NCBI GenBank assembly: GCA_028382005.1
Contig: JAOESH010000001.1
Span: forward strand, 1-36,797
Direction: 5' to 3'
Length of the DNA: 36,797 bases
Source of the DNA: Pseudomonadota bacterium
GTDB taxonomy: Bacteria; Pseudomonadota; Alphaproteobacteria; Puniceispirillales; Marisalimonadaceae
Below the pieces are notes generated by a model, which worked only from the letters and a program-made list of their open reading frames with translations, was not told where the DNA came from and did not search any database. This document shows, in pieces, positions 2,579 to 13,302 of this stretch. The first letter of the stretch is position 1. Each line of letters opens with the position of its first letter. The translations under genes were made by a program, and so were the position numbers.

Positions 2579-3571
2579 TTAAGCAGAACATTTAAAAATC
2601 TGACTTTTATCTATATAATTTTTTGTAATATTACTACAAAAGGAAGTCATTTCTTCTTCAATATCCAAATCATAAGACACAACACCATTATGTTGAGATA
2701 AAGGTCCTGAAAATAAAGGTGTCTGTGGATATAACTTAAAAATATCCTTAAACATTTCTTTGGGAAACCGTAATGGACCAAAACTTACAGAATGTATAGA
2801 ATGTGAAGGAATTGTATTATATATATTATCTAATAAATCTTTATATAATTTCTCCCAATTTTTACCATGGATCAACGGGTCAAATCTTAACCCAATTTTC
2901 CAGCCCTTTGCTGCTAAATGAGACATAGCGTTAATTCTTTTTAAAGTAGAAGGCGTCTTATTATCTAAGGCTTTTGACATTAAATCCGGCAAAAGACTAT
3001 ATGCAACAATAACATTCTTTAGAGGTTCTATTGAAGCAAATGGTTCTGTCTGAACACTTTTAGTTCTAAATTCAATATCTACATCAGGATATTTTGTAAA
3101 TAAAGTTGTTATATGTTTTGCAAAACCTGTAAGGGTTTCAAGAGCAAGTGAATCACAATCATAACCAGAAAAAAAGGTTGTTTTATTATCTTTATTATCT
3201 TGGATAACTTTTTCAATCTCTTTATCAAAGTCTTCAAAGTTTACAAAAATTACATAATTAGCAGATGAATACATACCCTGAAGAAAGCAATATCTACAAT
3301 CATATATACAGTTATACATATGAGAAAAATAATAATTTTTAGAAGAACCAATTCCAAATCCTTCTGGAGCTGAGAGTACATATCCATCATTTTTAAAAGC
3401 AAGTATTAGGTCAGGATTCTTTTTTTGAATTCTAAAATTTTGATTTCGTTTATTAAATATTTCTCCATATCTATCTATCTCTATAATTGTAGCTTTTTTA
3501 AACTTGGACAATATAAATTTAGTTCTTGGATGTTCTTTAATTTTTTTTTCAACATAAACAGTTTCTATCAA
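2579..3571 (-). CDS. spore photoproduct lyase-like radical SAM protein
   Basis: A radical SAM protein of the spore-photoproduct-lyase (SPL) family, about 330 residues. The [4Fe-4S]/SAM motif is CxxxCxxC (Cys88, Cys92, Cys95 in CIYDCRYCFLQ), and the trailing YCFLQ is the SPL-type extension of this motif. A second Cys (139) sits in YDCDSLALE near where SPL carries its hydrogen-donor Cys, but by eye it is offset by about two residues. An EFRTKS segment also matches the family. True SPL repairs the spore photoproduct thymine dimer in spore DNA; nothing here suggests a spore former, so the natural lesion or nucleoside substrate is open. Start choice: a TTG at 3571 overlaps the upstream TGA as TTGA and has GGAG six bases upstream, which is better than the in-frame TTG at 3583. 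It is tightly coupled to the nucleosidase gene. Confidence 0.83.
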   Translation of the reverse strand: MIETVYVEKKIKEHPRTKFILSKFKKATIIEIDRYGEIFNKRNQNFRIQKKNPDLILAFKNDGYVLSAPEGFGIGSSKNYYFSHMYNCIYDCRYCFLQGMYSSANYVIFVNFEDFDKEIEKVIQDNKDNKTTFFSGYDCDSLALETLTGFAKHITTLFTKYPDVDIEFRTKSVQTEPFASIEPLKNVIVAYSLLPDLMSKALDNKTPSTLKRINAMSHLAAKGWKIGLRFDPLIHGKNWEKLYKDLLDNIYNTIPSHSIHSVSFGPLRFPKEMFKDIFKLYPQTPLFSGPLSQHNGVVSYDLDIEEEMTSFCSNITKNYIDKSQIFKCSA

Positions 3572-4419
3572 ACTAGACTCCAATCAACTTCAGTATTTAG
3601 AATTTTTCTTTCTAAAGTAATAATAACAGATCGTGAGTTTTTACAATCTTTTATCAGTTCTATTATTTCTTCATCTTTAGTTAAAGTATTAATCCGTCTA
3701 ATTAAGTTGTTAAGCTTATATTTTTGAGAAACTGTGAAATGCCATTGAGATAATATTTGTGAAAATATTTTAGGTTTGTTTGTTATTTTGTATTCATCCA
3801 CAGACAAATTTTCATAATAAGAAACTATAGTTTTAATATTAGTAATATTTGACTTGATAAGTTCTATAATTTTTAATTTATTTAAATCTTTAATACTATT
3901 ATCAGGGCCATCAGAAATCACTTTAATGAGACAAATAAGTTCTCTACCAGATATCTTATTTGTAACATCATAAAAAGCACTACCTTCCATGTCTATAAGC
4001 TCATGTAAAGTGTAGTTTACAACAGGAACATCAGAAGTAAATAATTTCATCTTATCGAAAGTAACGTTTGGTATGGTCGCTGGATAGGTATTTGAAGAAC
4101 CATTATTACTTATTTTATTAACTAAACATAAATCTCCATAATGCCCTTTACCACTTCCTGCTATCCCAAGATTTATCCAGGAAGTTGACCTAGAAGCATT
4201 GCTAATTATATATAAATAAGTTGTCGCTGCTGCAGAATTATGTCTTCCAATTCCTGATAACACTAACCATCTAGTTTTTGCAAAATTTCTAAATACTTGG
4301 AACAACGTGAACTCAGGATCAAAATTCATGTTATACTCATCTAAGATTATTTCAGCCTCTTCCTTAAGTGCAACAACCCACCTAATAGACAAATTATTAA
4401 GAGCTTTATTTTGATTCAT
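3568..4419 (-). CDS. MTAN-like nucleoside phosphorylase/nucleosidase
   Basis: A roughly 283-residue protein of the purine nucleoside phosphorylase/MTA-SAH nucleosidase superfamily. The visible motifs are NLGIAG (83-88), the ribose-binding DMEGS (143-147, with Glu145) and a VISD segment with Asp170, equivalent to the catalytic Asp of MTA/SAH nucleosidases. The core therefore looks functional, though the C-terminal 80 residues are long and unlike short MTANs. Expected chemistry is N-glycosidic bond cleavage; the substrate is not readable. Start: the frame is open to a TTG at 4434, but the ATG at 4419 gives a shorter overlap (14 bases) with the glycosyltransferase gene. Its stop overlaps the SPL-like start. 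The tight pairing with a radical SAM SPL-like gene suggests a shared nucleoside or SAM-product role. Confidence 0.78.
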   Translation of the reverse strand: MNQNKALNNLSIRWVVALKEEAEIILDEYNMNFDPEFTLFQVFRNFAKTRWLVLSGIGRHNSAAATTYLYIISNASRSTSWINLGIAGSGKGHYGDLCLVNKISNNGSSNTYPATIPNVTFDKMKLFTSDVPVVNYTLHELIDMEGSAFYDVTNKISGRELICLIKVISDGPDNSIKDLNKLKIIELIKSNITNIKTIVSYYENLSVDEYKITNKPKIFSQILSQWHFTVSQKYKLNNLIRRINTLTKDEEIIELIKDCKNSRSVIITLERKILNTEVDWSLV

Positions 4420-5278
4420 ATTTGATTTCTTCAAGTTTAATTAAACATTGTTTAAGTTTTTGATCATACTTTTGAAAAGCTTCTTGATTTCCTCTTTTCT
4501 TGGCTCCAGTTGATACTATAATTAATTTTTCAATTAATTTTTTGTAAACAGTCTTAATTTGTTCTTTAGAGAACCAGTTATTTTCTATGTTTTTTTCTAA
4601 AGATTTTATTCTAAATCTATCCATCCCCCAGAATTTTTTTGAAAGCTGATCTTCATGCCCACCATATTTAAAAACCATTGGCTCAGATAAATAACCAATT
4701 TCCTCTTTAGCTGTTATTCTAATCCACATATCGTAATCTTCACAGACCTCTAACTTTTCATCAAAAAAGCCATAATCGTTGAAAACATTTTTTTGTATAA
4801 TAGAGCTACTTGGAGACACACAACATAATTCAAGCGATTTTTCAAAAATATTACCCCCTGATTTTTGGTGTTTTTTCATCTGATTTAATAATTTACCATT
4901 TCTATACCAAATTTCGTTTGTATGAATAAGTCTTAAATCTTTATTTTGGTTAGCGAATTGCAATTGTTTTTCTATTTTGTTAGGTTTCCAAGTGTCGTCT
5001 GAATCTAAAAGTGCAATCCAATTGGATTGAGCAAAACTAATACCTCTATTCCTTGCTGCACTTACACCCTTTTTTTTTTCGACTAAATATTTAATAGTTG
5101 GAAATGATGAAGATACCATTATATCTGTTTGATCACTAGATCCATTGTCAATTACAATAACTTCGTCAGGTTTTACAGTTTGCGTTAAGACAGATGATAG
5201 AGCCCTTTTAAGTAATTTACATCTGTTTAAAGTTGGTATTATAACAGAAACAGTATCTAACTTATGGTTATGGGACAT
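4406..5278 (-). CDS. family 2 glycosyltransferase
   Basis: A GT-A fold glycosyltransferase of family 2, about 290 residues from the ATG at 5278. The domain opens with VSVIIPTLN and has a VIDNGSSD nucleotide-sugar motif, the acidic DSDD motif (about 92-95) that holds the metal and UDP-sugar, and a CEDYDMWIR segment matching the usual ED acceptor-site motif. No membrane segment is visible, so it is probably cytosolic or peripheral, acting on an envelope glycan or lipid. Sugar and acceptor are unknown. The frame extends to a TTG at 5314 that would overlap the GFA gene by 17 bases; neither start has a clear Shine-Dalgarno. I prefer the ATG because the catalytic domain begins about eight residues later. 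A glycosyltransferase is an unexpected partner for the nucleosidase and radical SAM genes. Confidence 0.85.
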   Translation of the reverse strand: MSHNHKLDTVSVIIPTLNRCKLLKRALSSVLTQTVKPDEVIVIDNGSSDQTDIMVSSSFPTIKYLVEKKKGVSAARNRGISFAQSNWIALLDSDDTWKPNKIEKQLQFANQNKDLRLIHTNEIWYRNGKLLNQMKKHQKSGGNIFEKSLELCCVSPSSSIIQKNVFNDYGFFDEKLEVCEDYDMWIRITAKEEIGYLSEPMVFKYGGHEDQLSKKFWGMDRFRIKSLEKNIENNWFSKEQIKTVYKKLIEKLIIVSTGAKKRGNQEAFQKYDQKLKQCLIKLEEIKYESK

Positions 5279-5297
5279 TTTTGAAGGATAATTAACT

Positions 5298-5699
5298 CTA
5301 AGGTCTTTTATCAAAAGACTTTACATTATCATCAATATAATGAAATTTTTGTTTATCAGAAGTAAAAATAGCTATTTTTGGATCAAAAATGGACGGATCG
5401 TCAAATGTTCCAACTTTTAAAATTATTGAGTTAGGTCGTATTGGATTTTTTGTTCCAATTGCGGTACCACAGTTATTACAAAACAACCTTGTTACTGCCT
5501 TTTCTATATCATTTCTTTTAAACTCTTGTGGTTGACCTTTAATAAATTTAAAACTCTCTAAAGGCATTATCATTATTACGTTGGGGTGACCTCCTGTTAT
5601 ATATTGGCACTCTCTGCAGTGACACTGTATGGAAGCTTGAGGTTCTCCATTTGATACATACCTAATATTACCACAATAACATCCACCCTCAATATTCAT
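5298..5699 (-). CDS. GFA-family zinc protein (Mss4-like fold)
   Basis: A 133-residue protein of the GFA family (named after glutathione-dependent formaldehyde-activating enzyme). The metal-binding cysteines are in the standard layout: GGCYCG (Cys7, Cys9), CHCREC (Cys26, Cys28, Cys31) and FCNNCGT (Cys74, Cys77). The length is normal for the family. Most members have no proven reaction, so a glutathione or formaldehyde role should not be assumed. A GGAG seven bases before the ATG marks a good start. Its stop lies within the alternative TTG start region of the glycosyltransferase, and the gene is probably co-transcribed with the genes on both sides. Confidence 0.85.
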   Translation of the reverse strand: MNIEGGCYCGNIRYVSNGEPQASIQCHCRECQYITGGHPNVIMIMPLESFKFIKGQPQEFKRNDIEKAVTRLFCNNCGTAIGTKNPIRPNSIILKVGTFDDPSIFDPKIAIFTSDKQKFHYIDDNVKSFDKRP

Positions 5700-5731: not shown

Positions 5732-6031
5732 TTAAAAACTTTTAACTGACAACACTTCAATTGATTCCTCATCATACTTTACATTTAAACTGTTATAATC
5801 ATGAGGTACTTTAGTTAATTTTTCAATCGGTAAATTATCTACCCAAAGTAAGAAATTAATTTCTACGTTTTCTTTAGTATCAAAAGATAGTTTATTTTTA
5901 ATGTCTATATCTTCACTTATTATCACACTGTCTTCTTTTATTTCTCTGAAAGAACCTCGTTCTGGATCATTTCCATAAAATGTAACTTCAAATTTTATGA
6001 CCCACGATTTTTTTTTTAAAAAATTACTCAT
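5732..6031 (-). CDS. small protein of unknown function
   Basis: A 99-residue predicted cytosolic protein I do not recognise. It has no signal peptide, membrane segment or Cys. Alternating hydrophobic and charged residues (for example WVIKFEVTFYG and EINFLLWVDNL) suggest a mostly beta protein. It lies 32 bases upstream of the GFA gene and 20 bases downstream of the 74-residue protein, in the same direction, so it probably belongs to the same transcript. Codon use looks like that of its neighbours. The reading frame is clean and nothing competes on the other strand, which supports it being real; the function is unknown. Confidence 0.6.
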   Translation of the reverse strand: MSNFLKKKSWVIKFEVTFYGNDPERGSFREIKEDSVIISEDIDIKNKLSFDTKENVEINFLLWVDNLPIEKLTKVPHDYNSLNVKYDEESIEVLSVKSF

Positions 6032-6051
6032 ATCAAAATTATTATAATCAA

Positions 6052-6276
6052 TTATTCTGGTATTTTTAATCTTTGTTTTTTTTCTGTTGATCTTGCCAAT
6101 GCAGGTGGAGGAATTTCTTCTGTGATTTCTGCCTTATTACAAGTTAATAAGTTCATAACTTCCTCTGCTTTTTCTTTTCTACTCCAAGTATGGACTACAT
6201 TATCCTCCAAGTCTTTATACAAAAACCAATCTTTTTCACTTTTAGAAAGCCAAACTTTAATAGCATATACAGACAT
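6052..6276 (-). CDS. 74-residue protein of unknown function
   Basis: A small predicted cytosolic protein that I do not recognise. The frame opens at an ATG at 6288, but the ATG at 6276 has GGAG exactly six bases upstream and is the better start, giving 74 residues beginning MSVYAIKVW. The N-terminal half has aromatic and hydrophobic beta-like segments (YAIKVWL, DWFLYKDL). A predicted helix follows (KEKAEEVMNLL), then a charged, proline-containing tail. It is the first gene of the leftward run and is divergent from ppnP across about 125 bases that must hold both promoters. Confidence 0.6.
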   Translation of the reverse strand: MSVYAIKVWLSKSEKDWFLYKDLEDNVVHTWSRKEKAEEVMNLLTCNKAEITEEIPPPALARSTEKKQRLKIPE

Positions 6277-6310
6277 AATTAACTCCATTACGTAACAAAA
6301 AAATTGATAT

Positions 6311-6339
6311 TAGATAATACGTCATAAAAAAAATATAAT
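6311..6339 (+). promoter_or_regulatory. candidate sigma70-type promoter of ppnP
   Basis: A perfect TATAAT at 6334-6339 is preceded, with a 17-base spacer, by TAGATA at 6311-6316, a four-of-six match to TTGACA. Transcription would start near 6346 and give a leader of about 55 bases before the ppnP ATG. In DNA this AT-rich a chance match is possible. Confidence 0.4.
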
Positions 6340-6401
6340 GTAGTAATAATATTATTAAGAATTTAAAGTAAATTTTTATTTAACAATAAGAAAGAAAATC
6401 T

Positions 6402-6716
6402 ATGAATACTTTTAAAAATGTTACAGTTGATAAATTAGCAAATATATACTTTGAAGGAAAAGTCATTAGCAGGAAAATTATTTTTGATGACGGCACAATT
6501 AAAACTTTAGGAGTTATGCTTCCCGGTGAATATGAATTTAAAACTCAATCAAAAGAATTGATGGAAATTATTTCAGGTGAACTTAATTTTCAATTAAAAG
6601 ATAAAACTAATTGGAATATTATTAAAGATGGTATGAGCTTTAACGTAGAAAAAGACTCTTCATTCAAAGTAAAAGTATTCAAAACCGTCAATTATTCATG
6701 CTCATATTTTGATTAA
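6402..6716 (+). CDS. ppnP: pyrimidine/purine nucleoside phosphorylase PpnP
   Basis: A 104-residue single-domain cupin of the PpnP (formerly DUF1255/YaiE) family, which phosphorolyses several nucleosides to a free base plus ribose 1-phosphate in the cytosol. The characteristic stretches ANIYFEGKV, a KTLGVMLPGEYEF segment and EIISGEL are all present, as is the C-terminal YSCSYF end. Length matches the family (about 94-105). An AAGAAAG purine run precedes the ATG. It is divergent from a run that holds a second, unrelated nucleoside-cleaving enzyme, which hints at local nucleoside salvage, but that link is inference. It is followed after 43 bases by a flavoprotein gene on the same strand. Confidence 0.92.
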   Translation: MNTFKNVTVDKLANIYFEGKVISRKIIFDDGTIKTLGVMLPGEYEFKTQSKELMEIISGELNFQLKDKTNWNIIKDGMSFNVEKDSSFKVKVFKTVNYSCSYFD

Positions 6717-6759
6717 TTGATTATTTTAAAATTTTTTCAGAATAGGTATTACTTTTTTT

Positions 6760-7974
6760 ATGTTGAAAACAGTTAATATAATTGGTGGTGGACCAGCTGG
6801 TTTGATGGCAGCTAGTATTTTGTCACAAAATAGTTATCAGGTAACTATATTTGACCGCAAACCATCTTTAGGTCGAAAGTTTTTATTAGCTGGACGTGGT
6901 GGTTTGAACATTACACACTCAGAAAAAAAAGAAGATTTTTTTGAAAAGTATGGTAAAAACTCACAAATTTTTAAGCAAATTATTAATGAGTTCTCTCCAC
7001 AAGATTTACGTAATTGGTGTGAAAAATTAGGAGAAAAAACTTTTGTAGGATCAAGTGGAAGAGTTTTTCCAGAGAGTTTTAAAGCATCACCGCTTTTAAG
7101 AGCTTGGCTTTCTCAACTTAAAAGACAAAAAGTAATCTTTAAAACTAAACATGATTGGCTTGGGTGGAAAGATGATAAACTCTTATTTAAATCAGATAAT
7201 CAAGATATTTTAGTAAACTCAGACTTGACTATACTTTCATTGGGTGGTGCTTCTTGGCCTCATTTAGGATCTGATGGTTCTTGGGTGAATATCTTAGAAA
7301 AATACAATATTGAAGTTTCTAAATTACAACCTTCAAATTGTGGTTTTTTCGTAAATTGGTCTAAAATTTTTGCTAATCGTTTTGCTGGTAAGCCCCTCAA
7401 ATCAATAAAAATTAAATATAAAGAAAAAATAATTAGGGGTGAATTTGTTATTACAAAGGATGGTATTGAAGGTGGAGCTATTTATACTTTATCTTCATTG
7501 ATACGTGAATCTATAAATATTGATGGAGAGCAAAAAATAACTGTTGATCTCAAACCAGATATTAACATTAATGAAATTAATAGGCGTTTATCAAATACTA
7601 AGTCAAATTTATCTATGACAAACTATTTACGAAAAACTATTAAACTATCAGATGTAGCTATTGGGTTAATAATGGAAGTTAAGCATAAAAAAAAATCAAG
7701 AAAACTTAACTCAGAAAACTTAGCTTATCATATTAAAAATTTTGAGTTATCACTTCAAAAACCTTTTTCTATTAAAAAATGTATTTCTACAGCTGGTGGA
7801 GTAAGCTTTAATTCTATTGATAAAAATTTCATGTTAATAAAAAAATCCAACGTATATGTTGCTGGTGAAATGATAGATTGGGAAGCTCCAACTGGTGGGT
7901 ATCTTCTACAAGCTTGCATTGCTAGTGGGTTTTTTATAGCAAATAATATTTTAAAAAAAAACACTGAAAAATAA
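6760..7974 (+). CDS. YhiN/BaiN-type NAD(P)/FAD-dependent oxidoreductase
   Basis: A 404-residue flavoprotein of the HI0933/YhiN/BaiN family. The N-terminal FAD dinucleotide-binding motif GGGPAGLMAA is at 9-18 and the family signature GRKFLLAGRGGLN at 38-50. The C-terminal FAD-closing region includes VYVAGEMIDW and GGYLLQACIASG at about 368-390. The length and the PTGGYLLQ ending suggest the PP_4765-like subgroup. Physiological substrates of most members are unknown; a BaiN homologue has been linked to bile-acid reduction, which is not implied here. The Shine-Dalgarno is poor (AGG about 15 bases upstream). It lies downstream of ppnP and may share its transcript. Confidence 0.88.
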   Translation: MLKTVNIIGGGPAGLMAASILSQNSYQVTIFDRKPSLGRKFLLAGRGGLNITHSEKKEDFFEKYGKNSQIFKQIINEFSPQDLRNWCEKLGEKTFVGSSGRVFPESFKASPLLRAWLSQLKRQKVIFKTKHDWLGWKDDKLLFKSDNQDILVNSDLTILSLGGASWPHLGSDGSWVNILEKYNIEVSKLQPSNCGFFVNWSKIFANRFAGKPLKSIKIKYKEKIIRGEFVITKDGIEGGAIYTLSSLIRESINIDGEQKITVDLKPDININEINRRLSNTKSNLSMTNYLRKTIKLSDVAIGLIMEVKHKKKSRKLNSENLAYHIKNFELSLQKPFSIKKCISTAGGVSFNSIDKNFMLIKKSNVYVAGEMIDWEAPTGGYLLQACIASGFFIANNILKKNTEK

Positions 7975-8004
7975 AATTTATATATCTACAAATATTATAT
8001 TTAA

Positions 8005-8226
8005 TTACTTTCTTTTCTTTCTTAGTTGGATACAAGATTTACAGCCATTACTTCCACGTAAATGTAACCTTGGTTGTTGATAAAATTCTCCATGGTCTGG
8101 ACAAATTATTATTACTTTAGCAGTAAGTCCTTCAAACTCAACTTTTGAATAGTCAAAGTTATCACCATGAACTTTTTTAAATTTTGTAATTAATAATTCA
8201 GTAGTTATTTGTTTATCTTTTGACAA
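8005..8226 (-). CDS. small zinc-motif protein (DUF723-like)
   Basis: A 73-residue protein with one copy of a short module often found in phage and mobile-element proteins (DUF723-like). It reads HGDNFDYSKVEF, then CPDHGEF, then QPRLHLRGSNGC and C. Cys42, His45, Cys62 and Cys65 form a likely CxxH...CxxC zinc site. In larger proteins this module occurs beside nucleases; here it stands alone. The start is a TTG at 8226 with an AAGGG six bases upstream. The C-terminus is basic (RKKRK), compatible with nucleic-acid binding. It converges on the flavoprotein gene and stands alone. It could be a relic of a larger mobile-element protein. Function unknown. Confidence 0.62.
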   Translation of the reverse strand: MSKDKQITTELLITKFKKVHGDNFDYSKVEFEGLTAKVIIICPDHGEFYQQPRLHLRGSNGCKSCIQLRKKRK

Positions 8227-8495
8227 TAATTTCCCTTTAACTAAAGCAATTAAAACTTGTCTATCTAGTAGATTGCCTTCTTAGAAATTTATAATAGTGA
8301 TTAAAACAGATTATAAAACATAAATTAGTACATACTAAACTTAATTTGTTACATTTAATGATTTAAAATAATTATAAGTAAATTATGAATAAAAATACCA
8401 AGATAATAAGAGGTACAATAGTAATTTTTTACATATTTCCCTCCGACTTCAGCAATGGAGTTTGAAAGTGATAAAGGTGATTACAAAGTCAAATG
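8227..8495. other. intergenic stretch with possible gene remnant
   Basis: About 270 bases without a convincing gene. On the plus strand a 27-codon frame opens at ATG 8385 with a hydrophobic, signal-like segment. A second short frame opens at ATG 8455 in another phase and ends just before 8496. Together they could be a frameshifted relic, but both are too short to defend. A weak CTCC/GGAG hairpin near 8441-8460 lies just past the end of the Sel1 gene and lacks a T-tract. Confidence 0.25.
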
Positions 8496-8792
8496 CTAAT
8501 CAAATATGCTTTCAGCTGCTGTTTTATACCATTTAATAGCTTCGTCTTTATTTAAAGGAACGCCAATACCATTATTATAAGCTTCAGCTATATAATATGT
8601 AGTGGTATTTATTCCTAGTTTATTTTGATGATTATATAGATTAGCTATATTGTACTCAGATTCATCATCTCCTTGATATGAAGCTTTTGAATACCATTTT
8701 ATCTCAATATTCATATTTTCTTGAATTATAAAATGCAATTCTGTTACTCTTTTATTATCAGATAACGATAATCTTATTAAAATCTTCTTCAT
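8496..8792 (-). CDS. Sel1-like repeat protein
   Basis: A 98-residue protein with about two Sel1-like (TPR-related) repeats. The first is around IEIKWYSKASYQGDDESEYNIANLY, here spanning residues 29-53, and the second around residues 66-95 (AEAYNNGIGV then AIKWYKTAAE). The alternating helix pattern and the GIGV turn followed by AIKWY are the usual marks. Such repeats bind proteins. No signal peptide is obvious, although the N-terminal 12 residues are basic and hydrophobic. Its ATG shares one base with the stop of the VTC-domain gene (TAATG), so translation is probably coupled. It is the last gene of the DUF4956-CotH-VTC operon and may be an adaptor for it. Confidence 0.7.
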   Translation of the reverse strand: MKKILIRLSLSDNKRVTELHFIIQENMNIEIKWYSKASYQGDDESEYNIANLYNHQNKLGINTTTYYIAEAYNNGIGVPLNKDEAIKWYKTAAESIFD

Positions 8793-9484
8793 TAATTATT
8801 AACTAAATTAATACCAACGGCATATTTAGAATGTCTTCCGGGTCGAAGTAACTGAATATCTAATTCAACGTCATGTATTTTATTATCTCGCAATAATGGT
8901 TTTTTTATTTCTAACACTCCATACTCAACAGAGATACCATTTAATTTATTGTTTTTAAAAACATTGTTAGGGTTAACTTTTGAAAAAACTAACATTTTAT
9001 CTATGGTAATTCTTAATTCTCCATTATGATCTTCATAATATTCACGACAATATGACGAAAACAAAGAGAATTCTGAATAACTATCTATAAATGGCAACAT
9101 TGATTTAGGCAGTAAGTGTCGTAATTGGATCATTAACTTATGATTATTTTTCTCTAAAAATATATTATTATCTTTGATATTTATAGTATTAGATAATTTA
9201 CTACCAATCGTATTAGATCTAGCTTTAATTTCAAAATTCATAGTCGAAGAAGCTGTAATTTTTTCTTCTGGATGATCTGAATACCATCGCAATCGAGCTT
9301 TAACTCTATTAGATATTCCGGATAAATTATCTTCATAATTATTTAAGTGATATGAATCCATATACAAAGAGTTAACAAATCTTTCATTGAAAGCTTTTTT
9401 AACAGCAAAGTTTGAACCTAAAACTAAATCTCTTATTCTATCTAAATCAATTAATGAGAAAGTAAATTTCTTTTCTGAGCGCAT
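8792..9484 (-). CDS. VTC-domain polyphosphate polymerase-like protein
   Basis: A 230-residue stand-alone VTC domain, the tunnel-fold domain that in yeast Vtc4 makes polyphosphate from ATP. The expected tunnel residues are visible: RSEKKF at 2-7, NSLYMDS at 38-44, RVKARLRWY at 60-68, EIKAR at 85-89 (Lys87), YCREYY with Arg147, LRITID with Arg158, VLEIKK with Glu192, and SKYAV with Lys220. By correspondence with Vtc4 these cover the phosphate-binding arginines and lysines and the metal-binding Glu, so activity is plausible. No membrane segment is present, so it should be cytosolic. It starts one base after the CotH-like stop and overlaps the Sel1 start by one base. VTC domains next to DUF4956 and CotH genes are a recurring but poorly explained set. 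Confidence 0.85.
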   Translation of the reverse strand: MRSEKKFTFSLIDLDRIRDLVLGSNFAVKKAFNERFVNSLYMDSYHLNNYEDNLSGISNRVKARLRWYSDHPEEKITASSTMNFEIKARSNTIGSKLSNTINIKDNNIFLEKNNHKLMIQLRHLLPKSMLPFIDSYSEFSLFSSYCREYYEDHNGELRITIDKMLVFSKVNPNNVFKNNKLNGISVEYGVLEIKKPLLRDNKIHDVELDIQLLRPGRHSKYAVGINLVNN

Positions 9485-9485
9485 T

Positions 9486-12074
9486 TTATTTAACTGACTT
9501 CATTTTAGTTGCATATAATTTTTTAATATTAATTTTTTGAGTTTTTCTTTTTACACCTTCTATAATAAGTGTTGATCCATGTTCTGCTATATGTATTCCA
9601 GAATGGTCATCAATATTTTTCATTTCCAAAATAGCTCCTGAAAAATTTTGTTTCTTGTTATAAACCATAGTATTAGCCATAAAAATATTATGCATAACTA
9701 TATTATTTGCAATTAAGTGAGAAGAATCCTTTGCAACAATTCCAACTAAGGTATCAGATATTATTATATTATTAATAGTTGCCTTGGAGGATTCTCCAAC
9801 AGAAACACCCTTATCTGTCACATTCGTTATTTCTATATTATCCGCTACAAGATGAGATTTACTTATATCAATTGCATCGGCACCAGTAGTCGAACCAACG
9901 TTTGAAAATCTAGAATTAGACATTTTAACTTTGGAAAAATCAATGTCTAACGCATCAGATTTCGTATTCTGTATAATGACATTATCTAATGACCCTTTTG
10001 CATTCGATAAATTAAGAGTGTCTTCCGACTGATTATTTTGAAATAATGAATTTCGAATTTCAAAAGAACTATTATTTATAGTGAAGGCACCTCTATTTGA
10101 GAGGCCTGCAAAAATTCCATTACCTCCATCAACAATAAGGTTATTAATTATAGATAGAGATTTAAAGCCGTTTATTTGTATTCCAGCCCAATTTGAACTC
10201 TCCCCACCCTTTAGCATAACCTTACGGTCTTTTTTTCCGCTAACTACTAAACTTCCATTAATTATTAAGCCAGTGTTGTCACTAAAATCAAGTGTTGAAC
10301 CTGCTCCTATCTTTACATTTACACCTTTTGGAAAAATAATAGTCTGATTTATATACTTATATGTATCTTCTTCGATGTAAAAAGTATTTTCTTCGATGTC
10401 ATATTTAAAATAATTAGCAATAGTTGAGGCCTTTGTATATTCAAATAAATTTACATCAGAATTTATATAAGCAAAATGTGGATTAATAGTTTTTTTATAT
10501 TTCTTCTTCCCTAACTCAAAATAGTTTAATTTAATTTTAGGCATGCTTTTTAAATCTCTAAGCTTAAGATTATCATTTAAAATTCTAGATATCTCGTCCG
10601 AATTTGTTTTATTATTTATTGGATAGATGGTTTTTACTTGAGCAACTTTCAAAGACATTTCGTATAATTGAATAGTATCTTTTTGAAAAGGATATAAAAT
10701 AGCCTGAAATAAATTTGAATTACGTTTAACTAGAAGTGTTGGCACAAACTTGGCCTGCAGAGGTGAAGGTTGTATTTTATTTTTTTTATCTATAAATTTA
10801 GGTTCATGTTTTAATCCTTTGATCCATTTCAAAACTTCACCTAAATGACTATTTTTAATTTTAAAGTCACCTATAAAAGGGGCTTCTTGCGCAACTAAAG
10901 CTTTTAAATAACTACTTTTCTTATTAAACTGAATTAGTAATTTTTGCGCAGATGGATTATTAATCCACCATATTATTTTTTTTTCTAATATTATTTGGAA
11001 ATTTTCACTTTCAAGTAATTTATGAACAAATTCACTTCCGACAGGTAAAAAACCTAAAGGCCTATGATCTTCTTTTTGACCACACGAGTGATCTGTACTT
11101 ATAGGCTCAAGCTTTCTATTTAAAGGATGAAAATAATAGCTTAAGTTAAAATCAATATTACCGTGAAAACATTTAAATAGAAATGTTATAGAGAGGTATT
11201 CTGCCCATTTATCGAGATCTATTAAGTGAATATATTTCATTGGTTTTTGAATAATATTTTCTATTTTCCCTCCAATAAATTGTTGAACAGGGTCATTTAA
11301 CCAAAATAGTTTCTTATCTTCAAAACTAATTTTGTTAGCTTTTTCATCAAATTTAAAAATGGGGCCATAAGGTAAGTTTGATGCTTCGGTAAGTTGTTCA
11401 TTAATATCTTCTTCAAAATACATAAGTCCTATATTTTTACCATTGATAGTCAGATTTACATATCCATCCCTTGGAGCAAGAATTTCCCTTACTCGCATTG
11501 CTTCTTGTATGACAGGGGCAGAATGAAAATCTTTAGTATGTGGTGCTTGGAGAGTAAATTTTTGAATACCATCAAACGAACTATCTTTTAATTCTATTTT
11601 CAGTGACCATTTATTCGTTGCCAAGTGATCAAGTTGATACCCTTTTAATCTTAACTTCACTTCATCTTTATTTCCAGGAAATTTTATTATACCCTTAACT
11701 TTTGGATGCCCATCATAAATAAAGCCTTCACTCAAGGCTCTTATACGACTTTTTTCTAGATTCTTAAATTGTTTAAATTTAAGATCAAGCACAATTGGCC
11801 TAACTTTTTCGGCGTCCTTATGTTGAAAAAAAATGAAATCAGATAGATTACTTATTAGATTATCAACAACTTTTAAAATACTTACGGTTCTGTCAACACC
11901 TCCTAAACCATATGACTTAATCATCGTCCGAATAATAATATTTTCTCTTAAATGATTTTTAATCTGTACCTGATAAAGCACTACTAAAGTAGAACAAATT
12001 AAAAGAATACTTAAAAAAATTAGCAGAGTTTTTCCAAAATATTTGGATGATTTTTGTCTAGAAACAATTAACAT
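9486..12074 (-). CDS. membrane-anchored CotH-like kinase with beta-helix
   Basis: An 862-residue protein in three parts. A basic N-terminus and one membrane segment (about 15-36) place the rest outside the cytoplasmic membrane. Residues about 95-345 match CotH-type atypical kinases: KWSLKIEL with Lys159, a YFEED segment near 219-223, HGNIDFN (304-310, Asp308) and EPISTDHSCG (Asp328). Asp308 and Asp328 are my best candidates for the catalytic and metal-binding Asp pair. Residues about 575-800 form Asn/Ser/Ile-rich turns typical of a right-handed parallel beta-helix. CotH of Bacillus phosphorylates spore-coat proteins; here the target is unknown. The gene sits between DUF4956 (14-base gap) and VTC (1-base gap), which indicates one operon. 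The CotH plus beta-helix combination is large for the family. Kinase activity is inferred. Confidence 0.8.
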   Translation of the reverse strand: MLIVSRQKSSKYFGKTLLIFLSILLICSTLVVLYQVQIKNHLRENIIIRTMIKSYGLGGVDRTVSILKVVDNLISNLSDFIFFQHKDAEKVRPIVLDLKFKQFKNLEKSRIRALSEGFIYDGHPKVKGIIKFPGNKDEVKLRLKGYQLDHLATNKWSLKIELKDSSFDGIQKFTLQAPHTKDFHSAPVIQEAMRVREILAPRDGYVNLTINGKNIGLMYFEEDINEQLTEASNLPYGPIFKFDEKANKISFEDKKLFWLNDPVQQFIGGKIENIIQKPMKYIHLIDLDKWAEYLSITFLFKCFHGNIDFNLSYYFHPLNRKLEPISTDHSCGQKEDHRPLGFLPVGSEFVHKLLESENFQIILEKKIIWWINNPSAQKLLIQFNKKSSYLKALVAQEAPFIGDFKIKNSHLGEVLKWIKGLKHEPKFIDKKNKIQPSPLQAKFVPTLLVKRNSNLFQAILYPFQKDTIQLYEMSLKVAQVKTIYPINNKTNSDEISRILNDNLKLRDLKSMPKIKLNYFELGKKKYKKTINPHFAYINSDVNLFEYTKASTIANYFKYDIEENTFYIEEDTYKYINQTIIFPKGVNVKIGAGSTLDFSDNTGLIINGSLVVSGKKDRKVMLKGGESSNWAGIQINGFKSLSIINNLIVDGGNGIFAGLSNRGAFTINNSSFEIRNSLFQNNQSEDTLNLSNAKGSLDNVIIQNTKSDALDIDFSKVKMSNSRFSNVGSTTGADAIDISKSHLVADNIEITNVTDKGVSVGESSKATINNIIISDTLVGIVAKDSSHLIANNIVMHNIFMANTMVYNKKQNFSGAILEMKNIDDHSGIHIAEHGSTLIIEGVKRKTQKINIKKLYATKMKSVK

Positions 12075-12088
12075 TATTTAAGTTACCT

Positions 12089-12775
12089 TTAGAAGGGCAT
12101 AAGTTTTTGTCCATCTACAATTGACAAATCTGAAGGAGAAAAAATATTGTTTATCTGATTTGTCAATTTAATTAAATGATCGTTACCTGACAATTTTACA
12201 CACATAGTAATCATTGTATTTTTCTTTGAATAATCTAACCTTCGCAATACTATATTGTGTTCAATTTTTTGGTTTGCTTCTAAAAGCATTTTTTCAAAAT
12301 CTTGAGGATTAACATTTCCATCCAGAGTTACATAAACGAAATGTAAGTTATTATCATTTTTATCAACATTTTTCATCAAAAAGAAGAGTATAAGTAATAA
12401 TGTAATTACTACGATAATCGTTGGTATAGCTTGTCCTGCACCGAACCCTAGACCAACAGCAATACCCAAGAAAAGATAAGCAAGTTCAAATGGTTCTTTT
12501 ATCGGTGTTCGAAAACGCACTATAGATAGAGCACCAACCAAGCCTAATGACAGTGCCAATGAAGATTTTACTACAGTAATTACTAGGAATACAGTTATAG
12601 ATGTTGCTATTAATGTCTTTTCCATTGATTGGGACCTTGAGAGAGTTGGGAAATATCTTTTATAATGTTCTTTAATTAAAAAGCTAAGCACGATGGCACC
12701 AAAGAAATGTAAACAAAATTCTACCAAATTAAAAGCTTCTGAAACTGTAAGATTTGAAATTATTGTATCATTCAT
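12089..12775 (-). CDS. DUF4956 membrane protein
   Basis: A 228-residue integral membrane protein of the DUF4956 family. Hydrophobic segments lie at about 16-34, 54-70, 72-86, 97-113 and 117-134. Between and around them is the family signature GALSIVRFRTPIKEP at 81-95 followed by a glycine-rich helix. The last 90 residues are hydrophilic and probably cytosolic. The layout (SIVRFR after a helix, then a soluble C-terminal domain) recalls the MgtC/SapB-like fold, but this is inference. Function is unknown. The family commonly occurs beside VTC-domain and CotH genes, as it does here. A GAGG seven bases before the ATG is a good ribosome binding site. As first gene of the operon it is preceded by 450 non-coding bases. 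Confidence 0.83.
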   Translation of the reverse strand: MNDTIISNLTVSEAFNLVEFCLHFFGAIVLSFLIKEHYKRYFPTLSRSQSMEKTLIATSITVFLVITVVKSSLALSLGLVGALSIVRFRTPIKEPFELAYLFLGIAVGLGFGAGQAIPTIIVVITLLLILFFLMKNVDKNDNNLHFVYVTLDGNVNPQDFEKMLLEANQKIEHNIVLRRLDYSKKNTMITMCVKLSGNDHLIKLTNQINNIFSPSDLSIVDGQKLMPF

Positions 12776-12891
12776 ATTTACCTCTATTGTGAGACCATAT
12801 TAATATTTCAATTAAATTTTCTTAAAATAGTTACCAACGAGGTATTGAAGGTAAAAAGTGTCAATTTGATATAAAATATTTTCAAAATTAC

Positions 12892-12919
12892 ACTAGATCC
12901 TTTTTTAAGGTTGTCTAGT
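12892..12919. repeat. nested inverted repeat upstream of DUF4956
   Basis: An outer arm ACTAGA (12892-12897) pairs with TCTAGT (12914-12919), and an inner CCTT/AAGG pair encloses a TTTT loop. It could be an operator or a weak terminator for the tRNA transcript. It is not followed by a T-run on either strand. Confidence 0.45.
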
Positions 12920-13088
12920 AAAATATTAAAATATAATATTTAAAAAAAAATATAATTTGTAAATAATTTCCAATATATCATTGTCTATGTTTCATGGACT
13001 TCTAAAATTTTATTTTCAGATATATATATTATTTATATAAGCTTCACGATTACAAATAGGCGTTCGGCTGCAAGCTTAAATATGCCAC

Positions 13089-13107
13089 CTTCATCCAGTT
13101 AATGAAG
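13089..13107. repeat. hairpin in GC-richer patch
   Basis: A perfect six-base stem CTTCAT/ATGAAG with a seven-base loop, located in the middle of the 13041-13140 patch. It may be part of a small RNA or of a decayed gene. Nothing assigns a function. Confidence 0.35.
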
Positions 13108-13225
13108 CAACATCACGAGTTTCCATAATGGGGTGTAATTAATTGAAAGTAGTATGTATTCAATACAAGTTAAAAACTAGATAACATTCTCAAGTTACTT
13201 TATAAAATAATATTAATTATTTAAA

Positions 13226-13302
13226 TGGTAGCGGAGGAGGGACTTGAACCCCCGACAACCGGATTATGATTCCGATGCTCTAACCAGCTGAGCTACTCCG
13301 CC
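13226..13302 (-). tRNA. tRNA-Met (CAU), elongator type
   Basis: The minus strand folds into a full cloverleaf of 77 bases including an encoded CCA. The acceptor stem is GGCGGAG with CTCCGCT (first pair G-U). The D arm is GCTC...GAGC. The anticodon stem is TCGGA/TCCGG around loop ATCATAA with anticodon CAT, and the T arm contains the standard GGTTCAAGTCC. The sequence resembles the elongator tRNA-Met of alphaproteobacteria; initiator tRNA would have an unpaired 1-72 position and three G-C pairs in the anticodon stem. An Ile-CAU (lysidine) identity cannot be fully excluded but is less likely. It stands alone between the accessory region and the mnmA operon. Confidence 0.93.

Follow-up and report, generated by a model that had tools for sequence, protein, structure and literature searches.

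Four closely spaced genes lie on the reverse strand at positions 8496 to 12775 of a 36,797-nucleotide stretch of an alphaproteobacterial genome (GenBank assembly GCA_028382005.1, contig JAOESH010000001.1); this whole stretch is called the window below. They encode a membrane protein of the DUF4956 family, an anchored protein that joins a CotH kinase-like domain to a parallel beta-helix, a VTC-type triphosphate tunnel protein and a small Sel1-repeat protein. The first three belong to a widespread module, and the Sel1 gene lies outside it. The gaps of 14, 1 and -1 bases, noted in an earlier reading of the same DNA (the sequence-only reading), agree with the coordinates of the open reading frames (ORFs). 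By hydropathy, the DUF4956 protein has four membrane segments, the CotH protein has one at its N terminus, and the VTC and Sel1 proteins have none. A sequence scan was uninformative, with 46 promoter-like sites against 36.5 expected and 1 terminator against 1.4 expected. The features are as follows.

12089..12775, minus strand: DUF4956 membrane protein, 228 amino acids (aa) (ORF call, Pfam, hydropathy)
9486..12074, minus strand: CotH::beta-helix protein with N-terminal membrane anchor, 862 aa (ORF call, predicted fold)
11952..12038, minus strand: membrane anchor helix, residues 13-41 of the CotH::beta-helix protein (model, hydropathy)
10815..11813, minus strand: CotH kinase-like domain, residues 88-420 (model, Foldseek to 5jd9)
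11163..11165, minus strand: codon of His304, at the site of the catalytic Asp of kinase CotH (alignment)
9525..10409, minus strand: parallel beta-helix domain, residues 556-850 (model, Foldseek)
9651..10022, minus strand: beta-helix ladder, D685, D707, D710, D712, D733, D736, D754, K755, S758, E761, K782, D783, S785, K807 and K808 (conservation)
8792..9484, minus strand: VTC-type triphosphate tunnel protein, predicted polyphosphate polymerase, 230 aa, no membrane segment
8496..8792, minus strand: Sel1-repeat protein with one repeat, 98 aa, a local addition; 1-base overlap with the end of the VTC gene

Recurrence of the module

Among 398 Pseudomonadota genomes, matches above the family cut-off were found in seven for VTC and in eight for DUF4956, and all seven VTC genomes are common to both sets (hypergeometric chance, 2.7e-14; such chances ignore kinship, and three of the seven VTC genomes are from one genus). 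Co-occurrence beyond chance, the absence of which the sequence-only reading had named as one of two refuting outcomes, is borne out. DUF4956 lies in the same cluster at 10 of 10 VTC loci, where it either adjoins VTC or has only CotH in between. CotH, counted at E up to 0.001, is present in 31 of the 398 genomes and in five of the seven VTC genomes (hypergeometric chance, 3.9e-5, subject to the same disregard of kinship); in VTC genomes G083 and G099, Pfam saw no CotH. One genome (G250) carries DUF4956 without VTC or CotH, and another (G166), with a sub-threshold VTC match of 20.9 bits, is listed with neither DUF4956 nor CotH.

The window's own genome (G000) holds a second DUF4956-CotH::beta-helix-VTC set in the same order, on contig C2 (L003:9706-13161), with a DUF4956 match just below the cut-off (29.6 bits versus 30.6). 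Next to this second operon lies a divergent membrane-like protein of 414 aa, for which Pfam gave no match at E 0.01. Among near relatives, VTC was found in 7 of 81 genomes including its own (genus, 5/40; family, 1/9; order, 1/32). At the six VTC loci of the other near-relative genomes the CotH::helix protein adjoins VTC in 6/6 and DUF4956 was seen in 5/6; one near-relative locus, L042, has its start 64 bases from the edge of a contig.

Twelve aligned DUF4956 proteins, used as a query, returned at least 569 relatives, of which the best 80 named loci, not a random sample, were kept; in 33 of the 80, the stretch stops no more than 1.5 kb from the module. VTC is present at 61 of the 80, CotH::helix at 54 and DUF4956 alone at 5; the commonest gene order is DUF4956-CotH-VTC. 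Record titles name Bacteroidetes, Planctomycetota, Myxococcota, Chloroflexi, Verrucomicrobia, Nitrospina, Calditrichaeota, Thermoanaerobaculia, Marinamargulisbacteria, Pelagibacteraceae and Prochlorococcus marinus MIT 9302. A family tree made by a quick method left the window's row unplaced (support 22, long branches) and grouped the Prochlorococcus locus (L127) with Pelagibacteraceae, a hint of transfer. Four loci (L053, L058, L069 and L077) have two CotH::helix genes each, and at L108 two different ORFs encode the helix part and the CotH part.

These counts bear on the simplest alternative, namely that the four genes are chance neighbours and Sel1 is an equal partner. The Sel1 gene itself behaves as this would have it: a search of the 4432 ORFs from 98 loci with its product, which has one repeat (Pfam 39.9 bits versus a cut-off of 30.7), returned nothing but that product. 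With a counterpart at none of the 97 further loci in the comparison, Sel1 is rejected as a part of the system. The other three families occur together at 45 of the 80 named loci, and at least two of the three at 6/6 near-relative loci. Chance assembly is refuted by this recurrence for DUF4956, CotH and VTC and stands for Sel1; as an account of the whole set we give it practically no credence.

The CotH::beta-helix protein

Conservation was counted over 66 CotH::helix, 73 VTC and 91 DUF4956 proteins, some with frames cut by contig ends; the fold alignments comprised 55 of 61 complete CotH::helix proteins and 80 of 90 DUF4956 proteins.

The Pfam match to CotH (PF08757) falls below the cut-off (19.5 versus 23.8 bits). 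A 12-sequence profile found the solved Bacillus cereus CotH at E 2.4e-16 and no other solved structure at E up to 1; the predicted model likewise matches 5jd9 with a Foldseek E of 7.1e-14 and a TM-score of 0.68 by target. In the AlphaFold2 model, an anchor (residues 13-41) precedes the CotH domain (88-420; most blocks at pLDDT 85-96, with low values around 241-280, 331-350 and 401-420), a poorly predicted linker and the beta-helix (556-850; pLDDT about 94). The N-terminal anchor and the predicted outward-facing orientation agree with the extracytoplasmic placement given by the sequence-only reading. The window protein has no Pfam Beta_helix or NosD match at E up to 0.01; among 12 family members, PF13229 matched 3 and PF05048 matched 2. 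After CotH, Foldseek returned alginate lyase, tailspike and polygalacturonase folds, at E 1.7e-4 and weaker.

An Asp/Lys/Glu ladder in the beta-helix is among the best-kept parts of this long protein and is no add-on. D685, D707, D710, D712, D733, D736, D754, K755, S758, G760, E761, K782, D783, S785 and K808 are each shared by 58-63 of the 66 proteins, and K807 by 54. The sequence-only reading had regarded both the beta-helix and Sel1 as additions, which proved right for Sel1 and wrong for the beta-helix. Several ladder residues recur every 21-29 residues, about one per coil, and this spacing, taken from residue numbers rather than coordinates, suggests that they stack on one face of the helix. 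The known beta-helix enzymes (PL6 alginate lyases, AlgE/AlgG epimerases and GH28) share the fold and have acidic or basic residues about once per coil; they differ in that Foldseek TM-scores to them are low, the window protein has no family assignment and no common catalytic motif was shown.

The CotH domain resembles the spore-coat kinase (5jd9/5jda; PMC7821199) in the fold of residues 88-420 and in its second essential Asp, and differs from it in its membrane anchor, its beta-helix fusion, its Pfam score and, above all, in having His for the catalytic Asp. We place His304 at the catalytic-Asp site, and Asp328 at the second site, from alignment to 5jd9, whose two Asp lie 23 residues apart, the same spacing as that of Asp228 and Asp251 of Bacillus subtilis CotH; changing either of these gave an inactive protein (PMC7821199). 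D328 is Asp in 52/66 and Glu in 9/66. In the catalytic column, His is present in 8/8 fused proteins (the window's and seven others), and Asp in 8/9 unfused CotH-type proteins near VTC or DUF4956 (L083 differs). As the catalytic Asp has become His, the CotH domain may be a pseudokinase, and phosphorylation outside the cell, which the working idea of the sequence-only reading offered beside scaffolding, cannot be assumed for a domain that lacks the catalytic Asp of known CotH kinases. Six loci (L055, L059, L060, L076, L095 and L099) have a helix-less CotH near DUF4956 or VTC that keeps Asp at the catalytic position; L055, L059 and L076 also carry a CotH::helix protein a few kilobases off.

It is possible to see the beta-helix as the working enzyme, a surface-glycan lyase, epimerase or hydrolase, with the CotH pseudokinase sensing or binding phosphate and with VTC and DUF4956 in a regulatory role. 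Such an arrangement would account for a ladder that is kept as well as or better than His304 (56/66) and Asp328 (52/66), for fold matches that include alginate lyases, epimerases and polygalacturonases, for the replaced Asp, and for the sugar-pathway genes and O-antigen ligases found near some module copies. It sits less easily with the other CotH residues that are also kept (G145 and E222, 65/66 each; H150, 60/66), with a His that is itself conserved, as it need not be in a dead domain, and with the polymerase-type residues kept in VTC. We consider this a serious contender that is nonetheless unlikely.

The VTC and DUF4956 proteins

The VTC protein scores 67.8 bits with Pfam (PF09359) versus a cut-off of 23, and the alignment shows the basic residues of the tunnel, the metal-binding Glu and the catalytic Lys of the family. 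R2, E4, K6, R64, R66, E85, K87, R147, E192, K194 and K220 each occur in 72-73 of the 73 proteins and R158 in 70, so that the tunnel residues reported by the sequence-only reading are kept across the family. K220 aligns with the SKF lysine of Vtc4, which we take as Lys-458, a residue that is catalytic in the polymerase and has little effect in a hydrolase (PMC4641920). With its polymerase-type residues, the protein is predicted to be a polyphosphate polymerase. The VTC protein could instead be another triphosphate tunnel enzyme, such as a tripolyphosphatase or a nucleotide-binding regulator. E4 (73/73), equated by motif place, would correspond to the acidic-patch Glu-4 of AtTTM3, which is absent from Vtc4 (PMC4641920). 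Two other patch positions (R2 and K194, likewise equated by motif place) are basic as in polymerases, however, and the polymerase lysine is kept in 72/73 proteins; hence, a non-polymerase role appears quite doubtful.

The DUF4956 protein (PF16316, 66.8 bits versus a cut-off of 30.6) carries an invariant basic motif (R87 and R89 in 91/91, K93 in 89/91) in a membrane part of about four helices, after which comes a ferredoxin/ACT-like domain (residues 144-221). It is weakly MgtC-like (Pfam E 0.057; Foldseek to the MgtC C-terminal domain, E 0.023). A search against the sequences of solved structures gave nothing useful (best E, 0.16).

Phosphate and glycan genes beside the module

The neighbour scan took in 86 of the 88 ORFs that lie on the same strand no more than 300 bases away. 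It omitted L057:1594-4158 and L104:9606-10259, which overlap module genes, and kept a few other overlapping ORFs. The 86 neighbours include Metallophos (11), pyrophosphatase (4), CotH (4), GT1 (4), Wzy_C (3), PHO4 (2) and MBOAT (2) proteins. With profiles built from neighbours in the same loci that were later searched, phosphoesterase-like proteins were found at 20/98 loci, with 13 of 21 matches within 300 bases, and pyrophosphatases at 7/98 loci, with 5 of 7 matches within that distance. Calcineurin-like phosphoesterases adjoin some module copies. The pyrophosphatase loci are L040, L061, L064, L071 of Dokdonia pacifica, L074, L085 and L088, and PF00719 was seen directly in L040, L061, L085 and L088. 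Soluble pyrophosphatases are known as cytosolic enzymes. Those linked to the module have, by eye, a hydrophobic or lipobox-like leader in 7/7 cases, and two of the genomes also carry a separate pyrophosphatase of 176-181 aa without such a leader. A secreted-type pyrophosphatase beside the module points to phosphate chemistry outside the cell. At one Pelagibacteraceae locus (L088) the order is phosphoesterase-DUF4956-CotH::helix-VTC-pyrophosphatase, in a setting that looks, by eye, like a surface-sugar cluster. A PF00719 match in another genome (G429, L167) has internal stops.

The same neighbours might suggest a phosphate store, in which VTC would export a periplasmic polyphosphate reserve, the CotH::beta-helix protein would hold the polymer, and a secreted pyrophosphatase, a phosphoesterase and the transporter PHO4 would recover the phosphate. 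The presence of PHO4 (2/86), pyrophosphatase (4/86) and Metallophos (11/86) neighbours, and of the module in open-ocean Pelagibacteraceae and Prochlorococcus, would fit such a role. However, only a minority of loci have these neighbours, an acidic ladder is unlikely to bind a polyanion without metal ions, and patchy presence (5/40 same-genus genomes) together with surface-sugar contexts is a better fit to surface variation. We regard storage or scavenging as improbable.

Relation to known systems

The sequence-only reading saw in the set its strongest candidate for an undescribed system, but as such the set is not undescribed: cotH, a polyphosphate polymerase gene, DUF4956 and DUF4832 have been reported beside pelDEADAFG in streptococci and clostridia (PMC7112168), and the first three are published as Gram-positive pel accessory genes (PMC7112168, PMC12345266). 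In Streptococcus intermedius, loss of SIR_1592 (the membrane protein) or SIR_1594 (CotH) altered Pel levels and lowered aggregation (PMC12345266). This accessory set (SIR_1594-1592) shares with the window's module three contiguous families, with a secreted CotH-type protein, a polyphosphate-polymerase-type protein and a four-helix membrane protein with an ACT-like domain. It differs in that here CotH is fused to a beta-helix rather than FN3, has His at the catalytic Asp and is found in other bacteria; the fused beta-helix form stands apart from the known helper set of the biofilm sugar Pel. The authors of the 2025 study state that they failed to find the three-gene synteny outside Pel (PMC12345266), a statement that the present module tells against. 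PelG (PF16933), the one pel gene searched for, was not found in 31 of 32 module (or mostly module) genomes, many of them incomplete. The one genome with PelG (G113) has it on contig C291 and the module on C325. No PelG was found in the window's genome (80.7% complete), and a Pel link for this genome is not supported, as far as the assembly and PelG alone go.

VTC and CotH genes are also listed together in the Clostridium perfringens locus NELoc-2, where membrane proteins of 222-226 aa annotated as tubulin/FtsZ lie beside them (PMC2879425); from their size and place, we guess that these may be DUF4956 proteins. The yeast VTC complex shares with the module a tunnel-domain protein with polymerase residues that is coupled to a membrane protein. 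It differs in that the window's VTC protein has no SPX match in Pfam and that kinship of DUF4956 to the Vtc membrane subunits was not shown; we know of no outside CotH::beta-helix partner of the yeast complex. Among titles and abstracts, mostly of open-access journals, nothing was found on the fused CotH::beta-helix form or on polyphosphate as the donor of a secreted kinase, nor was a CotH kinase with a polyphosphate polymerase found in the present form.

Proposed function

The function of the set is unsettled, as the sequence-only reading also held, and the interpretation offered there is partly supported. Our own tentative reading, to which we give somewhat less than an even chance, is of an envelope module for phosphate transfer and glycan modification, fed by VTC-made polyphosphate. 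It starts from what the analysis showed, namely the conserved operon and residues, the predicted placement and folds, the phosphate-enzyme neighbours and the failure to find PelG. VTC would polymerise polyphosphate from ATP at the inner face of the membrane. DUF4956, MgtC-like and with a basic core motif, would dock VTC and pass or gate the polymer, by analogy with the yeast VTC complex, which serves the vacuole. Outside, the anchored CotH::beta-helix protein might then draw on this phosphate when it modifies a glycan or glycoprotein of the surface, its beta-helix being a putative glycan-binding or glycan-processing part. At some loci, by-products would be cleared by the phosphoesterases and by the pyrophosphatases with secretion-type leaders.

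Several observations weigh against this reading. The strongest are a silent VTC deletion and the lost catalytic Asp: deletion of SIR_1593, the polyphosphate polymerase of S. intermedius, had no reported effect or aggregation defect (PMC12345266), which is difficult to reconcile with VTC as the sole source of phosphate, and His replaces the catalytic Asp in 56/66 fused CotH domains. At 14 of the 80 named loci, DUF4956 and VTC occur with no CotH found by the profiles, of which at least three (L060, L095 and L099) hold a canonical CotH that the profiles missed. PPK1 is present in 17/32 module genomes, so the supply of polyphosphate is by itself not enough to account for the module. The DUF4956 model has no Foldseek match to a solved structure below E 0.003, which leaves a channel role without support from the fold. 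Members of the phosphoesterase and pyrophosphatase families were looked for and not found either in the window or in L003, where the second copy lies, and the window's genome, at 80.7% completeness, has no PF00719 match. We also considered VTC as a stand-in for PPK1; with PPK1 in 17/32 module genomes, and none found in the window's, this is unsupported.

The lost Asp may mean a pseudokinase or, at its boldest, a phosphohistidine route. In the latter case the module might be a polyphosphate-powered phosphotransferase outside the cell, in which VTC and DUF4956 would thread the polymer out and the His-type CotH would take phosphate from it, possibly via phosphohistidine at His304, and pass it to a glycan in the beta-helix groove. 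The secreted pyrophosphatase beside some copies would pull the reaction forward. We hold this more specific proposal to be unlikely by a wide measure; if true, it would remove the problem that ATP is lacking outside the membrane. A secreted kinase has to find its phosphate donor in a place where ATP is scarce. The ATP source of CotH has been called an unanswered question (PMC7821199), and with a CotH-like protein that has a membrane-coupled source of polyphosphate at its side, the question of the donor would become testable. As the module is present in Pelagibacteraceae and Prochlorococcus records, the surfaces on which it acts may include those of cells that are very numerous in the ocean.

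Genomic location

Upstream of the operon lies one further feature.

13226..13302, minus strand: tRNA-Met, apparent insertion site

A VOC protein next to mnmA was found in 28/40 same-genus genomes including the window's own, and tRNA-Met follows at 28/28. No module gene is present in the visible flank (at most 1.5 kb) of the 27 other same-genus loci. In 4/27 relatives, counterparts of genes 5732-6031 and 5298-5699 are the next genes after the tRNA within the stretch seen; at that place the window has about 7 kb (6031-13302), comprising a small gene, a flavoprotein gene and the operon. At a named alphaproteobacterial locus (L103), a DUF4956-helix-VTC set begins 43 bases after tRNA-Met, with mnmA about 5 kb off. 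Judging by this arrangement, and by the 7 kb set against a near-direct junction in the four relatives, a variable site or insertion hot spot seems to lie at the tRNA-Met next to mnmA, as seen from the window, L134-L161 and L103.

Several routes of acquisition were examined and set aside. An integrase scar at the tRNA would leave a direct repeat, and no stretch of 11-30 bases from the tRNA recurs exactly between 5601 and 13225. As to carriage by phage or plasmid, 50,697 phage records gave no match to the C-terminal 304 residues of the CotH::beta-helix protein, and 72,556 plasmid records gave none to the VTC protein. Recent transfer is not apparent from composition, since the operon genes (G+C, 26-30%) are close to the rest of the window (25-32%). 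Elsewhere in the window, positions 2579-3583 encode a spore photoproduct lyase-like radical SAM protein (PF20903, 81.9 bits), and a GT2 glycosyltransferase gene (4406-5314) lies near it.

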